61,990 nucleotides of DNA, from contig JAGBFR010000008.1 of NCBI GenBank assembly GCA_017936375.1, forward strand, positions 1 to 61,990. The letters are read 5' to 3'. The DNA comes from Clostridia bacterium. GTDB taxonomy: Bacteria > Bacillota > Clostridia > Christensenellales > Aristaeellaceae. Shown here one piece after another: positions 25,022 through 53,015 of the stretch. Below the pieces are notes generated by a model, which was not told the origin of the DNA, ran no database searches, and saw nothing but the letters and a program-made list of their open reading frames with translations. The position numbers and the translations under genes are program-made. Position 1 is the first letter of the stretch, and every line of letters begins with the position of its first letter.

Positions 25022-25050
25022 TTGCGCACGCTTCCTCGCGGTGTTATACT
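25022..25050 (+). promoter_or_regulatory. Promoter of the aromatic amino acid operon
   Basis: TTGCGC 25022-25027, 17 bases, TATACT 25045-25050, 28 bases before the leader-peptide start codon. The AT-rich stretch just upstream could act as an UP element. Confidence 0.6.
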
Positions 25051-25078
25051 CTTTATCATCAAACAGGAGGTACGCCCT

Positions 25079-25153
25079 ATGTTCTCTTTCTCCTTTGCAC
25101 GATTTAGCGGCTATTGCTTTACGGGCTATAGTCTTGCTTTTGTGCGTGCATGA
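25079..25153 (+). CDS. Phe/Tyr-rich leader peptide of the aro operon
   Basis: A 24-codon ORF (ATG 25079, TGA 25151-25153) with a strong ribosome binding site (AGGAGG, 25065-25070). Six codons are Phe (positions 2, 4, 6, 9, 14, 21) and two are Tyr (12, 17), so a third of the peptide is the end products of the operon behind it. The intrinsic terminator at 25198-25226 comes 45 bases after its stop codon and 57 bases before DAHP synthase. This is the structure of ribosome-mediated attenuation: scarcity of charged tRNA-Phe or tRNA-Tyr stalls the ribosome and lets transcription read through. There is no T-box motif here. Confidence 0.78.
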   Translation: MFSFSFARFSGYCFTGYSLAFVRA

Positions 25154-25157
25154 GAAT

Positions 25158-25226
25158 TGGAGGGCTTTTCCTCCCGATATCTGACTTGTATCGTCAGGCT
25201 CCTGCCACACAGGCAGGGGCTTTTTT
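25158..25226 (+). promoter_or_regulatory. Attenuator region with intrinsic terminator
   Basis: GCTCCTGCC (25198-25206) and GGCAGGGGC (25212-25220) form the terminator stem, followed by six T. Upstream are two smaller hairpins, GGAGG-CCTCC (25159-25174) and CTGAC-GTCAG (25181-25197). Competing pairings between these arms (for example GGAG at 25159 with the CTCC of the terminator) could form an antiterminator, but I could not settle which. Confidence 0.65.
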
Positions 25227-25282
25227 CGTACCCATGAGCGATAAGCAGACATGACAAACCGTCAGAAGGAAGGATATGCCGT

Positions 25283-26296
25283 ATGATCATCATCATGAAG
25301 CCCCAGGCCACCGAGGAACAGATTTCAACCCTCAGCCAGTCCCTCATCGCGCAGGGCATGCAGATCCAGCGCAACGCCGGCGTGGGCTGCACCGTGCTGG
25401 GCGTCATCGGCGACGTCGCGCATCTTGACCCGCATGACTTTCTGATCCAGCCGGGCGTGGAGCGCATCATGCCCGTCTCCGAGCCGTTCAAGAAGGCGAA
25501 CCGCAAGTTCCACCCGACGGACAGCATCATCGACTGCAGCGGCGTGCCCGTCGGCGGGCGCAAGCTGGCGCTCTTCGCCGGCCCCTGCTCGGTGGAAAAC
25601 TACGACCAGATCACGGATACCGCGCTGAAGGTTCGCTCCTCCGGCGCAAACATCCTTCGCGGCGGCGCATATAAGCCGCGCACCTCGCCCTATGCCTTCC
25701 AGGGCCTCAAGCTCGAGGGCCTCGCCCTGCTCGAGCAGGCGAAGGAGATCACCGGCATGCCCATCTGCACGGAGATCATGAGCCCCAAGCTCGTCGAGGA
25801 ATTCGATCGCCGGGTCGACGTCATTCAGGTCGGCGCGCGCAACATGCAGAATTTCGATCTGCTTACCGAGCTCGGCCAGACGCGCAAGCCCATCCTGCTC
25901 AAGCGCGGCCTCTCCGCGACGATCAACGAATGGATCATGAGCGCGGAATACATCATGGCCGCCGGCAATCCGAACGTCATCCTCTGCGAGCGCGGCATCC
26001 GCACGTTTGAGACCTATACCCGCAATACGCTCGACCTCTCGGCCGTGCAGGCGGTCAAGCAGCTCTCGCATCTGCCGGTCATCGTCGACCCGAGCCACGC
26101 GACGGGCCTCAACTGGATGGTGGAGCGCATGTCCCTCGCCGCCATCGCCGCCGGCGCGGACGGCCTGATCATCGAGGTTCATAACAACCCGCCCTGCGCC
26201 CTGTGCGACGGCGCGCAGAGCCTCACCCCGCCGCAGTTCGCCCAGCTGGTGGGCAAGATCGCGGCGATGGCCCCGATCGTCGAGCGCACGCTCTGA
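25283..26296 (+). CDS. aroF: 3-deoxy-7-phosphoheptulonate (DAHP) synthase
   Basis: 337 residues. It condenses phosphoenolpyruvate and erythrose 4-phosphate, the first step of the shikimate pathway. An N-terminal ferredoxin-like regulatory domain (residues 1-70, IIIMKPQATEEQISTL) precedes a type I-beta barrel with AGPCSVEN, GGAYKPRTSPYAFQG, QVGARNMQNFDLL, LLKRG and IVDPSHATG, which hold the PEP and metal ligands (Cys in AGPCS, His, Glu and Asp). In Thermotoga-like relatives the N-terminal domain mediates feedback by Tyr or Phe. GAAGGAAGG precedes ATG 25283. It is the first structural gene behind the attenuator. Confidence 0.95.
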   Translation: MIIIMKPQATEEQISTLSQSLIAQGMQIQRNAGVGCTVLGVIGDVAHLDPHDFLIQPGVERIMPVSEPFKKANRKFHPTDSIIDCSGVPVGGRKLALFAGPCSVENYDQITDTALKVRSSGANILRGGAYKPRTSPYAFQGLKLEGLALLEQAKEITGMPICTEIMSPKLVEEFDRRVDVIQVGARNMQNFDLLTELGQTRKPILLKRGLSATINEWIMSAEYIMAAGNPNVILCERGIRTFETYTRNTLDLSAVQAVKQLSHLPVIVDPSHATGLNWMVERMSLAAIAAGADGLIIEVHNNPPCALCDGAQSLTPPQFAQLVGKIAAMAPIVERTL

Positions 26297-26502
26297 GCGG
26301 GCTGTGCCCGCCTCCTCTTCCGCCAGAGTCTGTACGAAGCGATACCCCGTCACACGCGGACGTCATCATGCAGATTCAACAACGCACGCTCTGAGCGGGC
26401 TGTGCCCGCCTCCTCTTCCGCCAGAGTCTGTACGAAGCGATACCCCGTCACACGCGGATGTCATCATGCAGATTCAACAGTGCGCTCTGAGCGGGCTGTG
26501 TC
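26285..26502 (+). repeat. Tandem direct repeat (about 98 bases, 2.2 copies) between aroF and tyrA
   Basis: Copy one begins inside the last codons of aroF (ACGCTCTGAGCGGGC at 26288), copy two at 26383-26480 and a partial third at about 26481-26502 (GCTCTGAGCGGGCTGTG). The unit contains the hairpin GCGGGCTGTGCCCGC. Copies one and two differ by only a few bases. Each full unit ends in a short frame that recreates the R-T-L-stop ending of aroF. This accounts for the 234-base gap before tyrA; no other gene is there. Confidence 0.85.
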
Positions 26503-26530: not shown

Positions 26531-27406
26531 ATGAAAATGATGTTTATCGGCCTTGGCCTGATCGGCGGCAGCATGGCGCTCGCCCTGCAGGGCTATCCGG
26601 ATCTTGAGCGCTATGCCGTCGACCCCAACGCATGGACGCGCTCGGAGGCGCTCCGCCGCGGGGCTGTGCGCGCCGCATGGAGCGACGTCGCCGAAGCGCC
26701 GCTGGAGGAGATGGATATCGTCGCCCTCTGCCTACACCCGCAGGCTGCTGCCGATTTTGTCCTCGCCCATGCGCGGCGCATCCGCCCCGGCGCGCTGCTG
26801 ACCGACGTGTGCGGCGTCAAGCGCCCGCTGCACGAGGCCGTCTCCTCGCTGGCAGACAGGCCGTTCGTCTACCTCGGCGGCCATCCCATGGCCGGGCGCG
26901 AGCGCGGAGGCTTTGCAAACGCCACGCCGGATCTCTTCCGCGGCGCGCATTACATCCTCACCCCGGATGAAACCGTTCCCGAGGCGAGCATCCGCCTGAT
27001 GGCGCGTATGGTCACCCACATGGGCTGCGCGGATATCGTCTACTCAAATCCCGAGGCGCATGACGAGCGCATCGGCTACACCAGCCAGCTCATGCATGTC
27101 ATGGCCCTCGCCCTGTGCGATCAGCATCTGCTCTTTGACAGCCACGGCTTTGAGGGCAACTCCTTCCGCGGCGCGACGCGCGTCGCCGCGCTGGACCCCA
27201 ACCTCTGGTGCGAGCTCTTCTGGGCCAACAGAGAGACGCTCGCCGATCTCACCGACGAGCTTGCCGGCCGCCTCGCCGAATACAGCGCGCTGCTGCGCGG
27301 CGGGGACAGGGAGGCGCTGCTTGATCGCCTCACCGTCTCCAGCGACCGCAAGAAGGAATTTGACCGCATGCAGGGCGCGCCCAGCGGGTCTCCCCTGTTC
27401 ACCTGA
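26531..27406 (+). CDS. tyrA: Prephenate dehydrogenase
   Basis: 291 residues: an NAD(P)-binding Rossmann domain starting MFIGLGLIGGSMALAL, then DIVALCLHP, TDVCGVKRP and GGHPMAGRERGGF (the conserved His/Gly-rich active-site loop that binds prephenate), and an all-helical dimerisation domain (YTSQLMHVMALAL, GFEGNSFRGATRVAALDPNLWCELFWAN). It oxidatively decarboxylates prephenate to 4-hydroxyphenylpyruvate for tyrosine. There is no fused chorismate mutase and no ACT domain. ATG 26531 is used because the longer frame runs through the tandem repeat; a GAGGGA lies nine bases upstream. Confidence 0.93.
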   Translation: MKMMFIGLGLIGGSMALALQGYPDLERYAVDPNAWTRSEALRRGAVRAAWSDVAEAPLEEMDIVALCLHPQAAADFVLAHARRIRPGALLTDVCGVKRPLHEAVSSLADRPFVYLGGHPMAGRERGGFANATPDLFRGAHYILTPDETVPEASIRLMARMVTHMGCADIVYSNPEAHDERIGYTSQLMHVMALALCDQHLLFDSHGFEGNSFRGATRVAALDPNLWCELFWANRETLADLTDELAGRLAEYSALLRGGDREALLDRLTVSSDRKKEFDRMQGAPSGSPLFT

Positions 27407-27430
27407 TCCCTGACGCAAGGAGGAAACGCC

Positions 27431-28498
27431 ATGCCCATCGTCCCCGTCTGTGCGCCCGCGCAGGAAAGCCGCTATGACATCCACATCGGCCATGGTCTGC
27501 TCTCCGCCTGCGCGCCGCTGCTCGCCCCCTATGCCGGGCGGAAGGCCGCCGTCGTCGCCGACAGCAACACCGCGCCCCTCTACGCCGATACGCTCATGGC
27601 GCAGCTGCGTATGGCCGGCGCACAGCCCGCGCTCATCACCCTGCCCGCGGGCGAGACGACCAAGTGCCCGGAGCAGCTTGCCGTCCTCTACGACGCCTTT
27701 CTCGATCTGCGCCTGACGCGCAAAGACGTGGTCATCGCGCTGGGCGGCGGCGTCATCGGCGACATCACCGGCTACGCTGCGGCGACGTACATGCGCGGCG
27801 TGCGCTTTGTGCAGGTCCCCACGACGCTGCTTGCGCAGGTTGATTCCTCCGTAGGCGGCAAGGTCGCCGTCAATCACCCGCGCGGCAAGAATCTGCTGGG
27901 CGCCTTCTACCAGCCCGAGCTTGTGCTCATCGACTGCGCCACCCTCGCCACGCTGGATACGCGCCAGATCGGCGCGGGCCTTGGCGAGGTGGTCAAATAC
28001 GGCTGCATCGCCGACGAAGCGCTCTTTACAAAGCTGGAGGCGCTCAGCCCCCGCGAGGCGCTCATGCCCGTGCTTGACGAGGTCATCGCTCGCTGCTGCG
28101 CGATCAAGGCGCGCTACGTCGCCGAGGATCCGCACGACCACGGCGTGCGCATGCAGCTCAATTACGGCCATACCCTCGCCCATGCGCTGGAAAACGGCAT
28201 GGGCTACGGCACGCTGCTGCACGGCGAGGCCGTCTCCATCGGCATGGTCAGCGCCGCCCGCTGGGGCGAGACGCTCGGCATCACGCCCTCCGGCACGGCG
28301 GAGCGCATCCGCGCGCTGCTGACGGCCTATCAGCTGATGACCGACGTCCCCGAATGCCTCACAGCCGAGTCCCTCGCCGCCTCCATGGCGCTGGATAAAA
28401 AGGCCGACGGCGCGAAGGTCAACACCGTCATCCTCACAAAAATCGGCGCATGCACCGGCGTGCCGCTGACCCCCGACCAGCTCAGGGCCATGCTCTGA
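27431..28498 (+). CDS. aroB: 3-dehydroquinate synthase
   Basis: 355 residues, standard AroB length. NAD-binding motifs GGGVIGDITGYAAATYMRG and VPTTLLAQVDSSVGGKVAVNHPRGKNLLGAFYQP, and zinc ligands in GLGEVVKYG (Glu), NYGHTLAHALE (His) and LHGEAVSIGM (His). It converts DAHP to 3-dehydroquinate, the second shikimate step. GGAGG lies before ATG 27431. It is 24 bases after tyrA in the same operon. Confidence 0.96.
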   Translation: MPIVPVCAPAQESRYDIHIGHGLLSACAPLLAPYAGRKAAVVADSNTAPLYADTLMAQLRMAGAQPALITLPAGETTKCPEQLAVLYDAFLDLRLTRKDVVIALGGGVIGDITGYAAATYMRGVRFVQVPTTLLAQVDSSVGGKVAVNHPRGKNLLGAFYQPELVLIDCATLATLDTRQIGAGLGEVVKYGCIADEALFTKLEALSPREALMPVLDEVIARCCAIKARYVAEDPHDHGVRMQLNYGHTLAHALENGMGYGTLLHGEAVSIGMVSAARWGETLGITPSGTAERIRALLTAYQLMTDVPECLTAESLAASMALDKKADGAKVNTVILTKIGACTGVPLTPDQLRAML

Positions 28499-28532
28499 GC
28501 GCCATGCAGCTTTCATTGCGGAGGTAATCCTC

Positions 28533-29822
28533 ATGAATAAAACCGTTCGCCCGTCCGCGCTGCAGGGCGTGCTGCGCGTCATTCCCAGCAAATCGGCCTC
28601 CCACCGCGCGGTGATGCTCGCCGCCATGGCGCAGGGCCAGACGCAGGTCGCCCCGCTTCAGCTCTCGCGCGACATTGAGGCGACGCTCGCCTGCGCCAAG
28701 GCGCTGGGCGTCTGCTCCGGCGCATCGCTCTCGCCCGCAGGCGCAAATGGGCTCGTGCGCGCGGCGATCACCGGCGGCGGCGCTGCCGTCTGCGGCATGC
28801 GCACGCTCGACTGCGGCGAATCCGGCTCGACGCTCCGCTTCTTCATCCCCCTCGCGCTCGACGGGCGCGGCCCGGTCACCTTCATCGGCCATGGGCGGCT
28901 GATGCAGCGGCCGCTCGACGTCTATGAGCAGCTCTTTGCCCCCCTCGGCGTGCGCTGGGAGAAGCAGGGCGACCGGCTAACCATCGAGGGCCGCCTCACC
29001 CCGGGCGAATACGCGCTGCGCGGGGATGTGAGCAGCCAGTTCATCACCGGCCTGCTCCTCGCCCTGCCGCAGCTGGACGGCGAGAGCACCATCCGCATCA
29101 CGACCAAGCTCGAATCCCGCGCCTATGTGGAGCTCACCCGGCGCATACAGGCCGCCTTCGGCGTCGTCTCCCACTGGGCGGATGAGCAGACCCTCGTCAT
29201 CCCCGGCTGGCAGAAGCCCGTCTCCCCCGGCAGCTTTGCCGTCGAGGGCGACTGGAGCCACGCGGCCTTCTACCTCGTCGCCGGGGCGATCGGGCGCGGC
29301 GGGCGCATCGCGCTCACCGGGCTGGACCCGGCCAGCACGCAGGGCGACCGCGCCATCTTCTCCCTCCTTAAGCAGATGGGCGCGCGCATCCACGAGGAAG
29401 AGGACGGCGTCATCGACGTGCACCCCTCCTCGCTGACGGGCGTCACCGCCAATGTCGAGCAGACGCCGGATCTCGTGCCCGCGCTGGCCGTCGCCATGGC
29501 CGCGGCGAAGGGCGAGAGCCGCATCACCGGCGCGGCGCGCCTTCGCATCAAGGAGAGCGACCGCCTGAGCGCGATGAAAAACGCCCTCTGCGCCGCCGGT
29601 GCGGACGTGACGGAGCTGCCCGACGGCCTGATCATCCGCGGCGGAGCGCCGCTGCACGCAGCGCTGATCGAGGGCTGCAACGACCACCGCATCGTCATGG
29701 CGATGGCCGCCGCCTCGGCGATCAGCGACGGCGACCTGACCCTCACCGACAGCGAATCCGTCGCCAAATCCGCGCCTGCCTTCTGGGCAGAGTTTGCATC
29801 CCTCGGAGGTACAGCGCTATGA
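28533..29822 (+). CDS. aroA: 3-phosphoshikimate 1-carboxyvinyltransferase (EPSP synthase)
   Basis: 429 residues with two similar halves. Landmarks: PSKSASHRAVMLAAM near residue 18 (shikimate phosphate binding), CGESGSTLRFFIPLA (about 93-107, usually written LxCGNSGTxxR), YALRGDVSSQFITGLLLALP, a late KESDRL motif and NDHRIVMAMAAAS. It joins PEP to shikimate 3-phosphate. The Asn-Ala-Gly-Thr stretch of class I enzymes is replaced by CGESGSTLR, as in class II-like enzymes; glyphosate sensitivity cannot be judged by eye. Its stop overlaps the start of aroC (ATGA at 29819), indicating coupled translation. Confidence 0.95.
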   Translation: MNKTVRPSALQGVLRVIPSKSASHRAVMLAAMAQGQTQVAPLQLSRDIEATLACAKALGVCSGASLSPAGANGLVRAAITGGGAAVCGMRTLDCGESGSTLRFFIPLALDGRGPVTFIGHGRLMQRPLDVYEQLFAPLGVRWEKQGDRLTIEGRLTPGEYALRGDVSSQFITGLLLALPQLDGESTIRITTKLESRAYVELTRRIQAAFGVVSHWADEQTLVIPGWQKPVSPGSFAVEGDWSHAAFYLVAGAIGRGGRIALTGLDPASTQGDRAIFSLLKQMGARIHEEEDGVIDVHPSSLTGVTANVEQTPDLVPALAVAMAAAKGESRITGAARLRIKESDRLSAMKNALCAAGADVTELPDGLIIRGGAPLHAALIEGCNDHRIVMAMAAASAISDGDLTLTDSESVAKSAPAFWAEFASLGGTAL

Positions 29823-30913
29823 GAGGACAATTCGGCGAGCACTTCAAGCTCTCCATCTTCGGCGAAAGCCACGGCCCGGCCATCGGCATGGTGATCGACG
29901 GCATCCCCGCCGGCACGGTGATCGATGAGGAGGCCATCGCCCGGGACATGGCCCGCCGCGCCCCCGGCAACGACCCCACCGCCACCACCCGCAAGGAGGC
30001 CGACCGGGTGAAGATCGTCTCCGGCCTGTTTGAAGGCCGGGCGACCGGCACGCCCCTGTGCGGCATGATTGAGAACACAAATACCCGCTCCGGCGACTAT
30101 GCCCAGCTGCGCACGCGCATGCGCCCCGGGCATGCGGACTATGCGGGCTTCATCAAGTACGGCGGGTACAACGACCCGCGCGGCGGCGGTCATTTTTCCG
30201 CCCGGCTGACCGCGCCGCTGGTCTTTGCCGGCAGCATCGCCCGCCAGATCCTCGCCGCGAAGGGCATTGAGATCGCCGCGCACATCGCCGCCATCGGCGA
30301 CGTCGCCGACACGCCCTTTGACCCGGTCAACGTGGACGCCGCCGCCCTGCGCGCGCTGCGCGAGCGCCGCTTCACCCTGATCGACCCGGCAAAGGAGGCG
30401 CCCATGCGCGCCTGCGTGGACGAGGCCCGGATGGCGATGGACAGCGTCGGCGGCATGGTCGAGTGCGCCGCGGTCGGCGTGCCGGCAGGCGTCGGCTCGC
30501 CCTTCTTCGGCTCGGTGGAGAGCGTGGTCAGCAGCCTGCTCTTCTCCATCCCCGCGGTCAAAGCTGTGGAATTCGGCGACGGCATGGCCCTGCCCCGCAT
30601 GCGCGGCAGCCAGTCCAATGACGCCATGGCCTTTGAGGACGGGCGCGTGCGCACCCTCACCAACCACAACGGCGGCGTGACCGGCGGCATCACCAACGGC
30701 ATGCCCGTCATCCTTCGCGCCGCGCTCAAGCCCACGCCATCCATCGCGCGCGAGCAGCGCACGGTGAATCTTGAAACCGGGGAGGACACGACCCTCTCCA
30801 TCACCGGCCGCCACGATCCCTGCGTCGTGCCGCGCGCAGTCGTCGTCGTGGAGAGCGCGCTGGCCATCGCCCTGTGCGATCTGATGATGGACGATCGCGC
30901 CGCCCGCCTCTGA
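29819..30913 (+). CDS. aroC: Chorismate synthase
   Basis: 364 residues, typical length. Signatures GESHGPAIGMVIDGIPAG near residue 13, RAPGNDPTATTRKEADRV, RSGDYAQLRTRMRPGHADYAG, RGGGHFSARLTAPLVFAG and, at the end, RHDPCVVPRAVVVVESALA. The enzyme removes phosphate from EPSP to give chorismate and needs reduced FMN. The ATGA overlap with aroA and the short gap to pheA place it inside the operon. Confidence 0.97.
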   Translation: MRGQFGEHFKLSIFGESHGPAIGMVIDGIPAGTVIDEEAIARDMARRAPGNDPTATTRKEADRVKIVSGLFEGRATGTPLCGMIENTNTRSGDYAQLRTRMRPGHADYAGFIKYGGYNDPRGGGHFSARLTAPLVFAGSIARQILAAKGIEIAAHIAAIGDVADTPFDPVNVDAAALRALRERRFTLIDPAKEAPMRACVDEARMAMDSVGGMVECAAVGVPAGVGSPFFGSVESVVSSLLFSIPAVKAVEFGDGMALPRMRGSQSNDAMAFEDGRVRTLTNHNGGVTGGITNGMPVILRAALKPTPSIAREQRTVNLETGEDTTLSITGRHDPCVVPRAVVVVESALAIALCDLMMDDRAARL

Positions 30914-30964
30914 TCCAAGCCCGCAGAGAAGATCATTCGCCCGCAGGCGATGAAAGGAGCCCAT

Positions 30965-32065
30965 ATGAAAGAGCTTTCCCAGTGCCGCGCCGAGCTCGAC
31001 GCCATCGACAGGCAGCTCGTCGCGCTGTTTGAGGAGCGCATGCGCGTCTCCCGCGACGTCGCGCTCTATAAGCACGCCAACCATATGAACATCCTCGACG
31101 CCTCCCGCGAGGACGCCGTGCTGCAGAGCCGCGCCGCCATGATCGGCGAGGACGTCCTGCGCCAGCCCACGATGGCGCTCTTCCGCGAGATCATGCGCCT
31201 CTCCCGCGAGGAGCAGCGCCGCATCATCGACGAGATCAATGCGTCGCAGACCGTCGCCTACATGGGCGTGCCCGGCGCGTTCGGCGAGAGCGCGGTCGTT
31301 GGCTTCTTCGGCGAGGACTGCGAGCGCGTGTATTACAAGACCTTTGAGGAGGTCATCTCCGCCGTCTCCCGGGGCGAGGTGAAGTACGGCGTGCTCCCGG
31401 TGGAGAACTCCTCCTCCGGCTCCATCACCACCGTCTATGACCTGCTGGGCAAGTATGCCTGCCACATCGTGGGCGAGCAGCTCGTGCGCGTGGAGCAGTG
31501 CCTGCTGGGTGTGCCCGGCGCGTCGATCAATGAGATCAAGACCGTCTACAGCCATGAGCAGGGCTTTGCCCAGTGCCCCGTCTTCCTCGGGGAGCATGAG
31601 GACTGGGAGCAGAAACCCTACTTCAACACGGCCATCGCCGCCAAGCATGTGAGCGAAATGGGCGACAGGCACAGCGCCGCCATCGCCTCCCGCCTCGCAG
31701 CGAAGCACTACGGCCTTGAGATCCTCGCGCCGGACATCCACTCCAAGGACGGCAACCACACCCGCTTCTTTGTCGTCAGCGCGTCGCCTGCGTCCATCGG
31801 CGTGCCGGATAAGGCGACGCTCACCTTCACCCTGCGCCACGAGCGCGGCACGCTGATGCGCGCGCTCTCCAGCTTCACGGCGCTGGGCATGAATCTGACG
31901 CATATCGAATCCCGCCCGCTCCGCAATGCCAACTGGGAATACTGCTTCTATGTCGACCTGTGCGGCAATGTCAGCGAGGAGAGCCTGCATCTGCTGCTGA
32001 GCTCCCTGACCGCCGACTGCGAGAATTGCCGCCTGCTGGGCGCATACCGCGCGGCAAAGGAGTAA
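30965..32065 (+). CDS. pheA: Bifunctional chorismate mutase/prephenate dehydratase (P-protein)
   Basis: 366 residues with three domains. Residues 1-90 are an AroQ-type chorismate mutase (ELDAIDRQLVALFEERMRVSRDVALYK). Residues 95-275 are prephenate dehydratase (VAYMGVPGAFGESAVVGFF, GVLPVENSSSGSITTVYDLL, DGNHTRFFVVS with the essential Thr). Residues 285-360 are an ACT domain (LTFTLRHERGTLMRALSSF, IESRPL); the ESRP motif binds Phe for feedback inhibition. It leads chorismate to phenylpyruvate. It also supplies prephenate for TyrA. ATG 30965 follows AAAGGAG. Confidence 0.95.
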   Translation: MKELSQCRAELDAIDRQLVALFEERMRVSRDVALYKHANHMNILDASREDAVLQSRAAMIGEDVLRQPTMALFREIMRLSREEQRRIIDEINASQTVAYMGVPGAFGESAVVGFFGEDCERVYYKTFEEVISAVSRGEVKYGVLPVENSSSGSITTVYDLLGKYACHIVGEQLVRVEQCLLGVPGASINEIKTVYSHEQGFAQCPVFLGEHEDWEQKPYFNTAIAAKHVSEMGDRHSAAIASRLAAKHYGLEILAPDIHSKDGNHTRFFVVSASPASIGVPDKATLTFTLRHERGTLMRALSSFTALGMNLTHIESRPLRNANWEYCFYVDLCGNVSEESLHLLLSSLTADCENCRLLGAYRAAKE

Positions 32066-32068
32066 CCT

Positions 32069-32566
32069 ATGGACAGGCATATCTTTCTCATCGGCATGAT
32101 GGGCTGCGGCAAGAGCACCATGGGCAGGCACCTCGCGTGCCTCACAGGCGCGGCGTGCCTCGACCTTGACGAGGAGATCGTCCGCCGCGAGGGGCGCACG
32201 ATTCCCGAGATCTTTGCCGACGCCGGCGACGCGGGCTTCCGCATCTTGGAGACAGCTGCGCTGCGCGCCGCGTGCGCCATGCCGCCGATGATCATCGCGA
32301 CCGGCGGCGGCGTCGTGACGCGCGAGGAGAATATCGACCTCATGCGCGAAAACGGCACGGTCGTCTGGCTCAATCGCCCGCTGGAGGAGATCATCGCCTG
32401 CGTGCAGCAGGATAACCGCCCCAAGCTCGCCGGCAACAAGGAGGAGCGCATGCGCACCCTCTACGCCCAGCGCGAGGCGCTCTATACGCGTGCCGCGCAC
32501 ATCGTCTTTGACAACAGCGCGCCGCCGGAGCAGGCGGCGAAGGCGCTCGCCGATACGCTGCGCTGA
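32069..32566 (+). CDS. aroK: Shikimate kinase
   Basis: 165 residues: P-loop GMMGCGKST (residues 9-17), DLDEEIVRREGRTI (shikimate and Mg contact Asp), GGGVVTREEN (Walker B-like region with shikimate contacts), and a lid region with RPKLAGNKEERMRTLYAQREALYTRAA. It phosphorylates shikimate. The start is three bases after the pheA stop, with AAAGGAG inside the pheA end. It is the last gene of the operon; aroD/aroQ and aroE are not in the window and must be elsewhere. Confidence 0.93.
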   Translation: MDRHIFLIGMMGCGKSTMGRHLACLTGAACLDLDEEIVRREGRTIPEIFADAGDAGFRILETAALRAACAMPPMIIATGGGVVTREENIDLMRENGTVVWLNRPLEEIIACVQQDNRPKLAGNKEERMRTLYAQREALYTRAAHIVFDNSAPPEQAAKALADTLR

Positions 32567-41568: not shown

Positions 41569-41893
41569 AATATAAAAGCAGCCTTATCCCATTGGGACGA
41601 GGCTGCTCGCGGTACCACCCAAATTAGCGCAGTGCGCTTTCCACTTCCGAACCCGTCCGCAAAGCATCCTGCTTTTGCGCACGCGGCCGATCGTATTGAG
41701 CATCCATCTGCACTCACTTCATTAAGCCGTAACGTGGCGATCCGTCTCCCCCTAACGGCCATAGCACACCGCTCAGGGAAGCCGCTGCGCAGGTGATCCC
41801 ATACCCCTCTCCCCGTCCGGAATTGCACCAGTCTCCGGCTCTCTGCGCGCTTTGAAGGGCAGCGTCCTGCGTCATTCGCGTTTGACGATATTC
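41569..41893 (-). ncRNA. T-box leader of ileS
   Basis: On the minus strand GGGTGGTACCGCG (41622-41610), the core T-box, is followed by the terminator AGCAGCC...GGCTGCTTTT (41605-41569). Upstream, GGGATCACC holds an ATC Ile codon at 41797-41795 in a plausible specifier position, so uncharged tRNA-Ile should favour read-through. The leader begins just after the promoter at 41900-41928. Confidence 0.9.
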
Positions 41894-44121: not shown

Positions 44122-44135
44122 AGCCGCAAGTACAT

Positions 44136-44320
44136 AGAGCGTCCGCGGTGTCCGGGGTGGCTGTCCATGCCCGGGTGAAAAGGGAAGCAGGTGCAAGTCC
44201 TGCACGAACTCGTCGCTGTAAGGCAGGAGTTCTGCGCCACCATGTCACTGGGCAATCGCCCGGGAAGACGGCGCAGAGCGGCGATCGCCAAGTCAGAAGA
44301 CCTGCCGGGGATGAATGTTG
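44136..44320 (+). ncRNA. Cobalamin riboswitch
   Basis: Conserved elements appear in order: GGTGAAAAGGGAA, GCAGGTGCAAGTCCTGCACG, CGCTGTAA, GTCACTGGG, CCCGGGAAG and the B12 box-like AAGTCAGAAGACCTGCC at 44291-44307. The terminator at 44376-44409 provides the off state when corrinoid is plentiful. Confidence 0.93.
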
Positions 44321-44375
44321 TGGGGCCACGAGTCATTGGCTGAAACATGCACGTCCGCTGCGAACGGCTTATTTC

Positions 44376-52787: not shown

Positions 52788-53015
52788 AAGGAGCCCTCAT
52801 CCTCATGGGACGAAAAGCTCCGCGGTGCCACCCAAATTGCCGCCATGACAGCGGCCTCTTTTTGCGCCGTAAGGGAGCGCAGCCCGCGGACTCGTCGCCC
52901 GCCGCATCAGGAGAGCGGATCCGCAGCCTCCGGCCCTGCCTCGCACCGACCGGCAGGTCTCTTGAGCCTTATGCAGCGTATTTTCTCCCTGCTCCCCGAG
53001 GGGAGCGCGCGTATG
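52788..53015 (-). ncRNA. T-box leader of serS
   Basis: Minus strand GGGTGGCACCGCGG (52833-52820) is the T-box; the terminator stem GGAGC...GCTCCTTTT follows (52822-52788). Stem I lies upstream, but I could not place the Ser specifier codon with certainty. Confidence 0.85.

Follow-up and report, generated by a model that had tools for sequence, protein, structure and literature searches.

The aromatic operon of a gut clostridium is preceded by a leader that is, in all likelihood, a ribosome-controlled transcription attenuator upstream of aroF, sensing the supply of phenylalanine and tyrosine; this reading draws on sequence comparison and predicted RNA structures. The window, the whole stretch of 61,990 nucleotides that was analysed, comes from the genome of a Candidatus Ventricola relative within the Clostridia. 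Its closest named records are Candidatus Ventricola, with an aroF identity of 89-90%, and also Clostridia bacteria; Ventricola is placed in Clostridia, Bacillota (NCBI taxonomy). A leader open reading frame (ORF) sits between a promoter and an intrinsic terminator, with the genes of the order aroF-tyrA-aroB-aroA-aroC-pheA-aroK all lying 3' of it. The promoter, the 24-codon ORF with six Phe and two Tyr codons, its ribosome site and the downstream aro, tyr and phe genes had been described in a sequence-only reading of this DNA, and sequence and Pfam confirm them. The attenuator reading proposed there is supported by comparison with relatives and by predicted structures. The locus comprises the following features.

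25022-25050, forward strand: promoter TTGCGC-17 nt-TATACT, from the sequence; 18/20 genus loci match it in spacing and position.
25065-25070, forward strand: Shine-Dalgarno sequence AGGAGG of the leader ORF, from the sequence.
25079-25153, forward strand: leader ORF of 24 codons, MFSFSFARFSGYCFTGYSLAFVRA followed by a stop; present in 20/20 genus loci with upstream sequence.
25096-25102, forward strand: region 1 (codons 6-8), forming the 5' side of the outer 1:2 helix; 97.9% of cells paired.
25109-25133, forward strand: inner helix of hairpin 1:2, 25109-25118 with 25124-25133; 96.0% of cells paired, 5/10 pairs changed on both sides.
25140-25154, forward strand: region 2, of which 25140-25146 pairs with region 1 and 25142-25154 with region 3.
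25159-25174, forward strand: hairpin 3' of the stop codon, predicted by folding and enclosed by the antiterminator; its sequence varies between relatives.
25181-25197, forward strand: small hairpin CUGAC...GUCAG beside the terminator; 72.2% of cells paired, weaker support.
25198-25226, forward strand: intrinsic terminator from the scan, 25198-25206 with 25212-25220, T run 25221-25226; 99.4% of cells paired.
25199-25210, forward strand: region 3, CUCCUGCCACAC, the 5' arm and loop of the terminator, which pairs with region 2; 93.5% of cells paired.
25283-26296, forward strand: aroF, DAHP synthase with a ferredoxin-like domain, first gene of the operon (Pfam).
26531-32566, forward strand: remainder of the operon, tyrA, aroB, aroA, aroC, pheA and aroK (Pfam).

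The promoter sequence is conserved between genus loci: T(T/G)GNNN-16 or 17 nt-TATANT occurs 27-38 nt upstream of the leader in 18/20 of them, and a simple promoter scan of the region left the leader promoter uncalled. Downstream, pheA encodes a chorismate mutase-prephenate dehydratase and aroK a shikimate kinase, as identified by Pfam. The trpE gene (PF04715) was not found in 27/29 genus genomes, including all nine with a completeness of 90% or more and a contamination of 5% or less, nor in the window's own genome, the assembly of which is 81% complete. Since trpE was not found in these 27 genomes, Phe and Tyr, and not Trp, are probably what the aromatic operon supplies, an output that would match the codons of the leader. 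A tandem repeat with a 98-base unit (2.2 copies, 95% matches, window 26285-26500) begins in the end of aroF and occupies most of the gap between aroF and tyrA.

Comparison within the genus covers 20 loci, including that of the window; L023, with 64 nt of upstream sequence before a contig end, was left out of the leader counts. Leader ORFs upstream of aroF were expected in relatives, and one is present at each of the 20 loci, with a purine-rich site visible 5' of it. The ORF of the window devotes 8/24 codons to Phe and Tyr and reaches a Phe/Tyr score of 5.0 (-log10 binomial), a score of at least 3 being reached by 1.0% of upstream regions when shuffled and by 0% when reverse-complemented. This cut-off passes 19/20 genus loci, the conserved leader of L027 falling below it; in L028 the best-scoring ORF differs from the conserved leader, and L019 has a longer ORF. 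Searches against NCBIfam with the window leader and three other leaders returned no family at E ≤0.5.

The aromatic codons are conserved in relatives, as the attenuator reading had anticipated. All 20 genus leaders share the pattern RF-x-(G/S)-(Y/F). For the codon table L029 was dropped as out of register, while L024 and L025 are out of register after an indel. Among the 19 in-register leaders, codon 9 is TTT (Phe) in every one, codon 12 is Tyr or Phe in every one (TAT 17, TTC 2), codon 8 is CGA (Arg) in every one, and codon 4 is TTC in 17. Across aroF at the 20 loci, CGA accounts for 8/379 Arg codons and TTT for 44/180 Phe codons. Synonymous identity is 0.84 in the leader versus 0.64 in aroF, and no 23-codon window of aroF, out of 312, reaches the value of the leader. 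Because synonymous sites are frozen and the rare CGA and TTT codons are kept, the RNA itself, beyond the peptide, appears to be under selection. The Phe/Tyr codons also differ in their third base along the leader (window 25082-25129 = codons 2-17): across the genus, codons 9, 12, 14 and 17 are U-ending in 56/58 cases and codons 2 and 4 C-ending in 29/29, and aroF favours the C-ending forms. The U-ending bias could reflect pairing or slower decoding.

Comparison of the RNAs recovers the classical 1:2 / 2:3 / 3:4 scheme. Across the 20 leaders, hairpin 1:2 and the terminator jointly have 97.7% of cells paired versus 38-51% in slid versions, and 9/26 pairs are changed on both sides, a number reached by 0/500 shuffles. 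This covariation lies in the inner 1:2 helix and in the terminator helix, where 4/9 pairs are changed on both sides in the 20-leader alignment. The outer helix, the part of hairpin 1:2 that competes for region 2, has seven pairs with one-sided changes only and none changed on both sides. An alternative 1:2 register (25096-25101 with CGTGCA) was dropped, its covariation being not above shuffles. The terminator had been called a strong intrinsic one. A simple scan does find a terminator-like stem at 25196-25222 with a T tail, but its count (1 found versus 0.9 expected in 1601 bases) does not exceed chance, and the weight of the terminator therefore comes from its conservation and not from the scan. 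Its 5' arm and loop (CUCCUGCCACAC) are almost invariant while the 3' arm varies, which suggests that the 5' arm and loop have a second pairing partner. The region 3 motif, searched as CTCCTGCCACAC-N0-4-GGC, occurs once in the genome, and a generic repeated terminator as the source of the conserved 5' arm was therefore rejected.

Folding of transcripts that end 5' of the terminator 3' arm, with a ribosome covering the 5' part, yields GUGCGUGCAUGAG as the partner. This stretch (25142-25154) lies in region 2 and comprises codons 22-24, the stop codon and the next base. The antiterminator together with the small hairpin has 86.9% of cells paired in the 20 sequences versus 22-45% in slid versions. 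Covariation of 2:3 is no higher than in shuffles (91/500 reach it), as little can be expected from a near-invariant helix. The test for a mutually exclusive antiterminator comes out in favour of the earlier reading: the pairing is predicted and its sequence conserved, though within the genus energy by itself does not set it apart from shuffles. The helix of the window contains mismatches, and shuffles equal it in energy (p 0.41); p<0.05 is reached in 1/18 genus loci and 0/2 paralogue loci. Synonymous recodings of the leaders form 2:3 in 579/1200 cases, so that the peptide alone makes this pairing about half likely, and a mean of 18% of them give the ORF a fold no worse than that of the native sequence.

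The predicted antiterminator shares bases with the terminator and depends on the position of the ribosome. With the ribosome at codon 17, at least half of the antiterminator is predicted in 18/20 genus sequences; the count is 15/20 at codons 4 and 14, 14/20 at codon 6, 9/20 at codon 12 and 7/20 at codon 9. It falls to 0/20 in the absence of a ribosome and with the ribosome at codon 21 or 25. Among stalls at codons 4 to 17, predicted 2:3 pairing thus has its minimum at codons 9 and 12, which are the aromatic codons with the strongest conservation. In the window sequence 2:3 is predicted for every stall codon examined between 4 and 17; L027 and L028 do not form it, and for L021, L024 and L029 the automatic placement of region 2 misses by a few bases. 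When the whole terminator is present, the equilibrium folds of 16 sequences favour the terminator even with a stalled ribosome, so the switch must be kinetic. As a whole, the case within the genus rests on conservation and state dependence, not on energy.

Leader-peptide attenuation needs a ribosome that keeps pace with RNA polymerase. When Phe-tRNA and Tyr-tRNA are charged, the ribosome would reach the stop codon and cover region 2, upon which terminator 3:4 would form and transcription would stop before aroF. When they are scarce, the ribosome would stall on the Phe/Tyr codons and hold hairpin 1:2 open; region 2 could then form 2:3 with the 5' arm and loop of the terminator, and transcription would continue into the operon. 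In the absence of a ribosome, hairpin 1:2 would form and the terminator would win. Comparison shows the ORF, the conserved aromatic codons, hairpin 1:2, the terminator and a conserved potential for 2:3; translation of the leader, stalling of the ribosome and the change in read-through are what we infer from them.

Aromatic residues are not the only ones conserved in the genus: Arg8 is kept in 19/19 leaders, Gly11 in 17/19 and Val22 in 17/19. Such conservation would suit an arrest peptide, in which free Phe or Tyr is captured by the nascent chain itself and the ribosome halts; the sensor would then be the residues, and not codon supply. TnaC, which binds Trp, is a precedent. However, these three residues are largely frozen at synonymous sites and lie within paired arms, and can therefore be explained by RNA pairing, while the leaders of other families keep their richness in Phe and Tyr in very different sequences. 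We regard an arrest peptide as improbable. Codon 9 (UUU), unpaired in the model of hairpin 1:2 and terminator and yet invariant in the 19 in-register leaders, could alternatively belong to a ligand- or protein-binding RNA element to which the ORF is secondary. A cobalamin riboswitch is the only element in the window to reach its Rfam gathering score, which leaves room for an undescribed class. We nevertheless consider a binding element very improbable, given that all 20 genus loci retain the ORF with its ribosome site and aromatic codons and that Phe/Tyr-rich ORFs recur in 45/88 loci of the class in very different sequences. It is hardly credible that the ORF, which has its own ribosome site and stop codon and a terminator between it and aroF, is a short protein gene with an ordinary terminator and no part in regulating aroF, as the last stretch of the ORF can base-pair with the 5' arm of the terminator and both are conserved, the Phe/Tyr codons fit the products of the operon, and a simple scan calls no promoter in 25154-25282, a weak point since that scan missed the leader promoter too.

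To place the attenuator more broadly, the class Clostridia was sampled: 107/148 genomes have a DAHP-synthase match, and one upstream region was taken from each of 89 genomes, 88 of which were long enough (L132 was dropped for too little upstream sequence). A leader was called where a Phe/Tyr-rich ORF with a ribosome site scored at least 3, the level reached by 1.0% of shuffles. Such an ORF is found in 45/88 DAHP-synthase upstream regions, spanning 25/45 families. A terminator follows the leader in 35/45 of these loci versus 1/135 shuffled spacers, and leader and terminator occur together in 21 families; a terminator-like hairpin is also present in 13/43 regions that lack a called leader. In a second, 'order' set, which contains the same-genus paralogue loci L098 and L099, the same-family loci L030, L097 and L100, and two loci each from two genomes, 10/21 have leaders and nine of these a terminator. 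Among loci from beyond the genus, 22/35 of the class set and 7/9 of the 'order' set have an antiterminator pairing that outperforms shuffles at p<0.05.

Parts of this diverse group share short motifs. The peptide core G-Y/F-F/L occurs in 19/53 distinct leaders versus a mean of 6.2 and a maximum of 14 in 500 shuffles. AUGAG or GUGAG stands in the partner strand in 15/44 class and order loci, as a raw count; Ventricola has GCAUGAG. The shared peptide core and the RUGAG core hint at common descent without proving it. Searching for the core motif before other genes gave three genus matches outside leader positions, each with three mismatches, as many as the hits of the reversed-pattern control may have. 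The second DAHP synthase of the genus (L089-L096) has a different Phe/Tyr leader of its own in 7/8 loci, 4/7 with a terminator; counting L098 and L099 of the same genus, where no leader was called, the total is 7/10. An example of these leaders is MARSTFAYFYGLYPFGLTGCLRCGA, and TGCL occurs in 5/7.

Aromatic genes in Bacillota are usually tied to T-boxes and TRAP, and leader peptides had been taken to be rare here. This view has to be corrected, as in the sampled Clostridia leader peptides are commoner than T-boxes before DAHP synthase. A T-box directly precedes DAHP synthase in 8/44 class loci that lack a called leader; these 44 comprise 43 of the 88 and L132, with 11/44 scanned at the stricter gathering cut-off only, and among class loci with leaders the T-box scan covered L116 alone. 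We hold it to be an evenly balanced proposition that Phe/Tyr leader-peptide attenuation is the main and ancient control of DAHP synthase in Clostridia, with one attenuator family diversified across many families, parts of it keeping the G-Y/F-F/L peptide core and the RUGAG antiterminator core, and T-boxes in the minority.

The mechanism itself is of a kind already known, similar candidates are found in two papers, and what is new is the breadth in Clostridia. The enteric pheA leader (PheL) has a Phe-rich short ORF, overlapping 1:2, 2:3 and 3:4 pairings and a terminator. The window leader resembles it in its Phe-rich short ORF, overlapping pairings and terminator before aromatic genes; unlike PheL, it also has Tyr codons, precedes a whole shikimate operon and has no match to Rfam Phe_leader, which was not among the seven window matches at E ≤5. 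Phe_leader is a gamma-proteobacterial family. Upstream of aroF in Acholeplasma, the uORFC-13-1 motif (24 sequences, from one genus or environmental; PMC8632094) likewise has a short ORF with at least one Phe codon, a promoter, a terminator, aroF downstream and a proposed attenuation; it differs in that the available text of PMC8632094 mentions another paired substructure and names neither Tyr codons nor an antiterminator. A study of five genomes including Clostridium novyi lists two uORFs at shikimate genes as candidates, with Phe and Tyr codons (PMC6429828). Like the window leader, this pair consists of Phe/Tyr leader ORFs at shikimate genes; the genome of origin, mechanism and breadth are not given in the available text. 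Leader-peptide attenuation in Bacillota is also represented, in the text available, by the Leu-rich attenuator of ilv-leu in Staphylococcus aureus (PMC5794164) and the His leaders of hisS/hisZ in bacilli (PMC2965389), which differ in their amino acids, their genes and their class, Bacilli. Judged by titles and the starts of abstracts, searches of an open-licence library turned up no paper that describes such Phe/Tyr attenuators at aroF throughout Clostridia, and a term search of the available text of PMC11109978 and PMC2494555 finds no mention of aroF or DAHP.

According to the available text of PMC13323073, runaway transcription is assigned to Bacillota at the level of the phylum, a classification unfavourable to attenuation driven by ribosomes. 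If Phe/Tyr attenuation were indeed the ancient main mode, transcription and translation would have to be coupled in Clostridia, or some form of pausing would have to stand in for coupling. Were a switch read by the ribosome widespread at the entry step of the shikimate pathway, coupling in Clostridia would become directly testable, and there would be a mechanism by which gut Clostridia adjust Phe and Tyr synthesis.

T-box leaders, which read uncharged tRNA directly, are the alternative solution for amino acid genes, and a TRAP-regulated leader is a series of spaced GAG/UAG triplets. The T-box covariance model (RF00230) has no match at 25022-25282, and a T-box at the leader locus is thus rejected. 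As the sequence-only reading had stated, two T-boxes lie elsewhere in the window, at 41590-41885 (-) and 52803-52997 (-), before ileS and serS; they score 68.8 and 82.8 bits, under the Rfam gathering score of 93 bits. The genome has 14 T-box matches at E ≤0.001, and the nine examined (seven outside the window, two inside) precede leuA, seven tRNA-synthetase genes and an ABC transporter gene. The earlier suggestion that this genome uses both strategies is borne out, with T-boxes at these genes and a leader at the aromatic operon. The T-box before the transporter gene (L006:1501-1748, minus strand), which encodes a PF04392 ABC substrate-binding protein, shows UGG in the likely specifier loop when read by eye; together with the missing trpE, this would fit Trp import in a Trp auxotroph. 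The cobalamin riboswitch of the window lies at 44129-44323 (+) and scores 120 bits.
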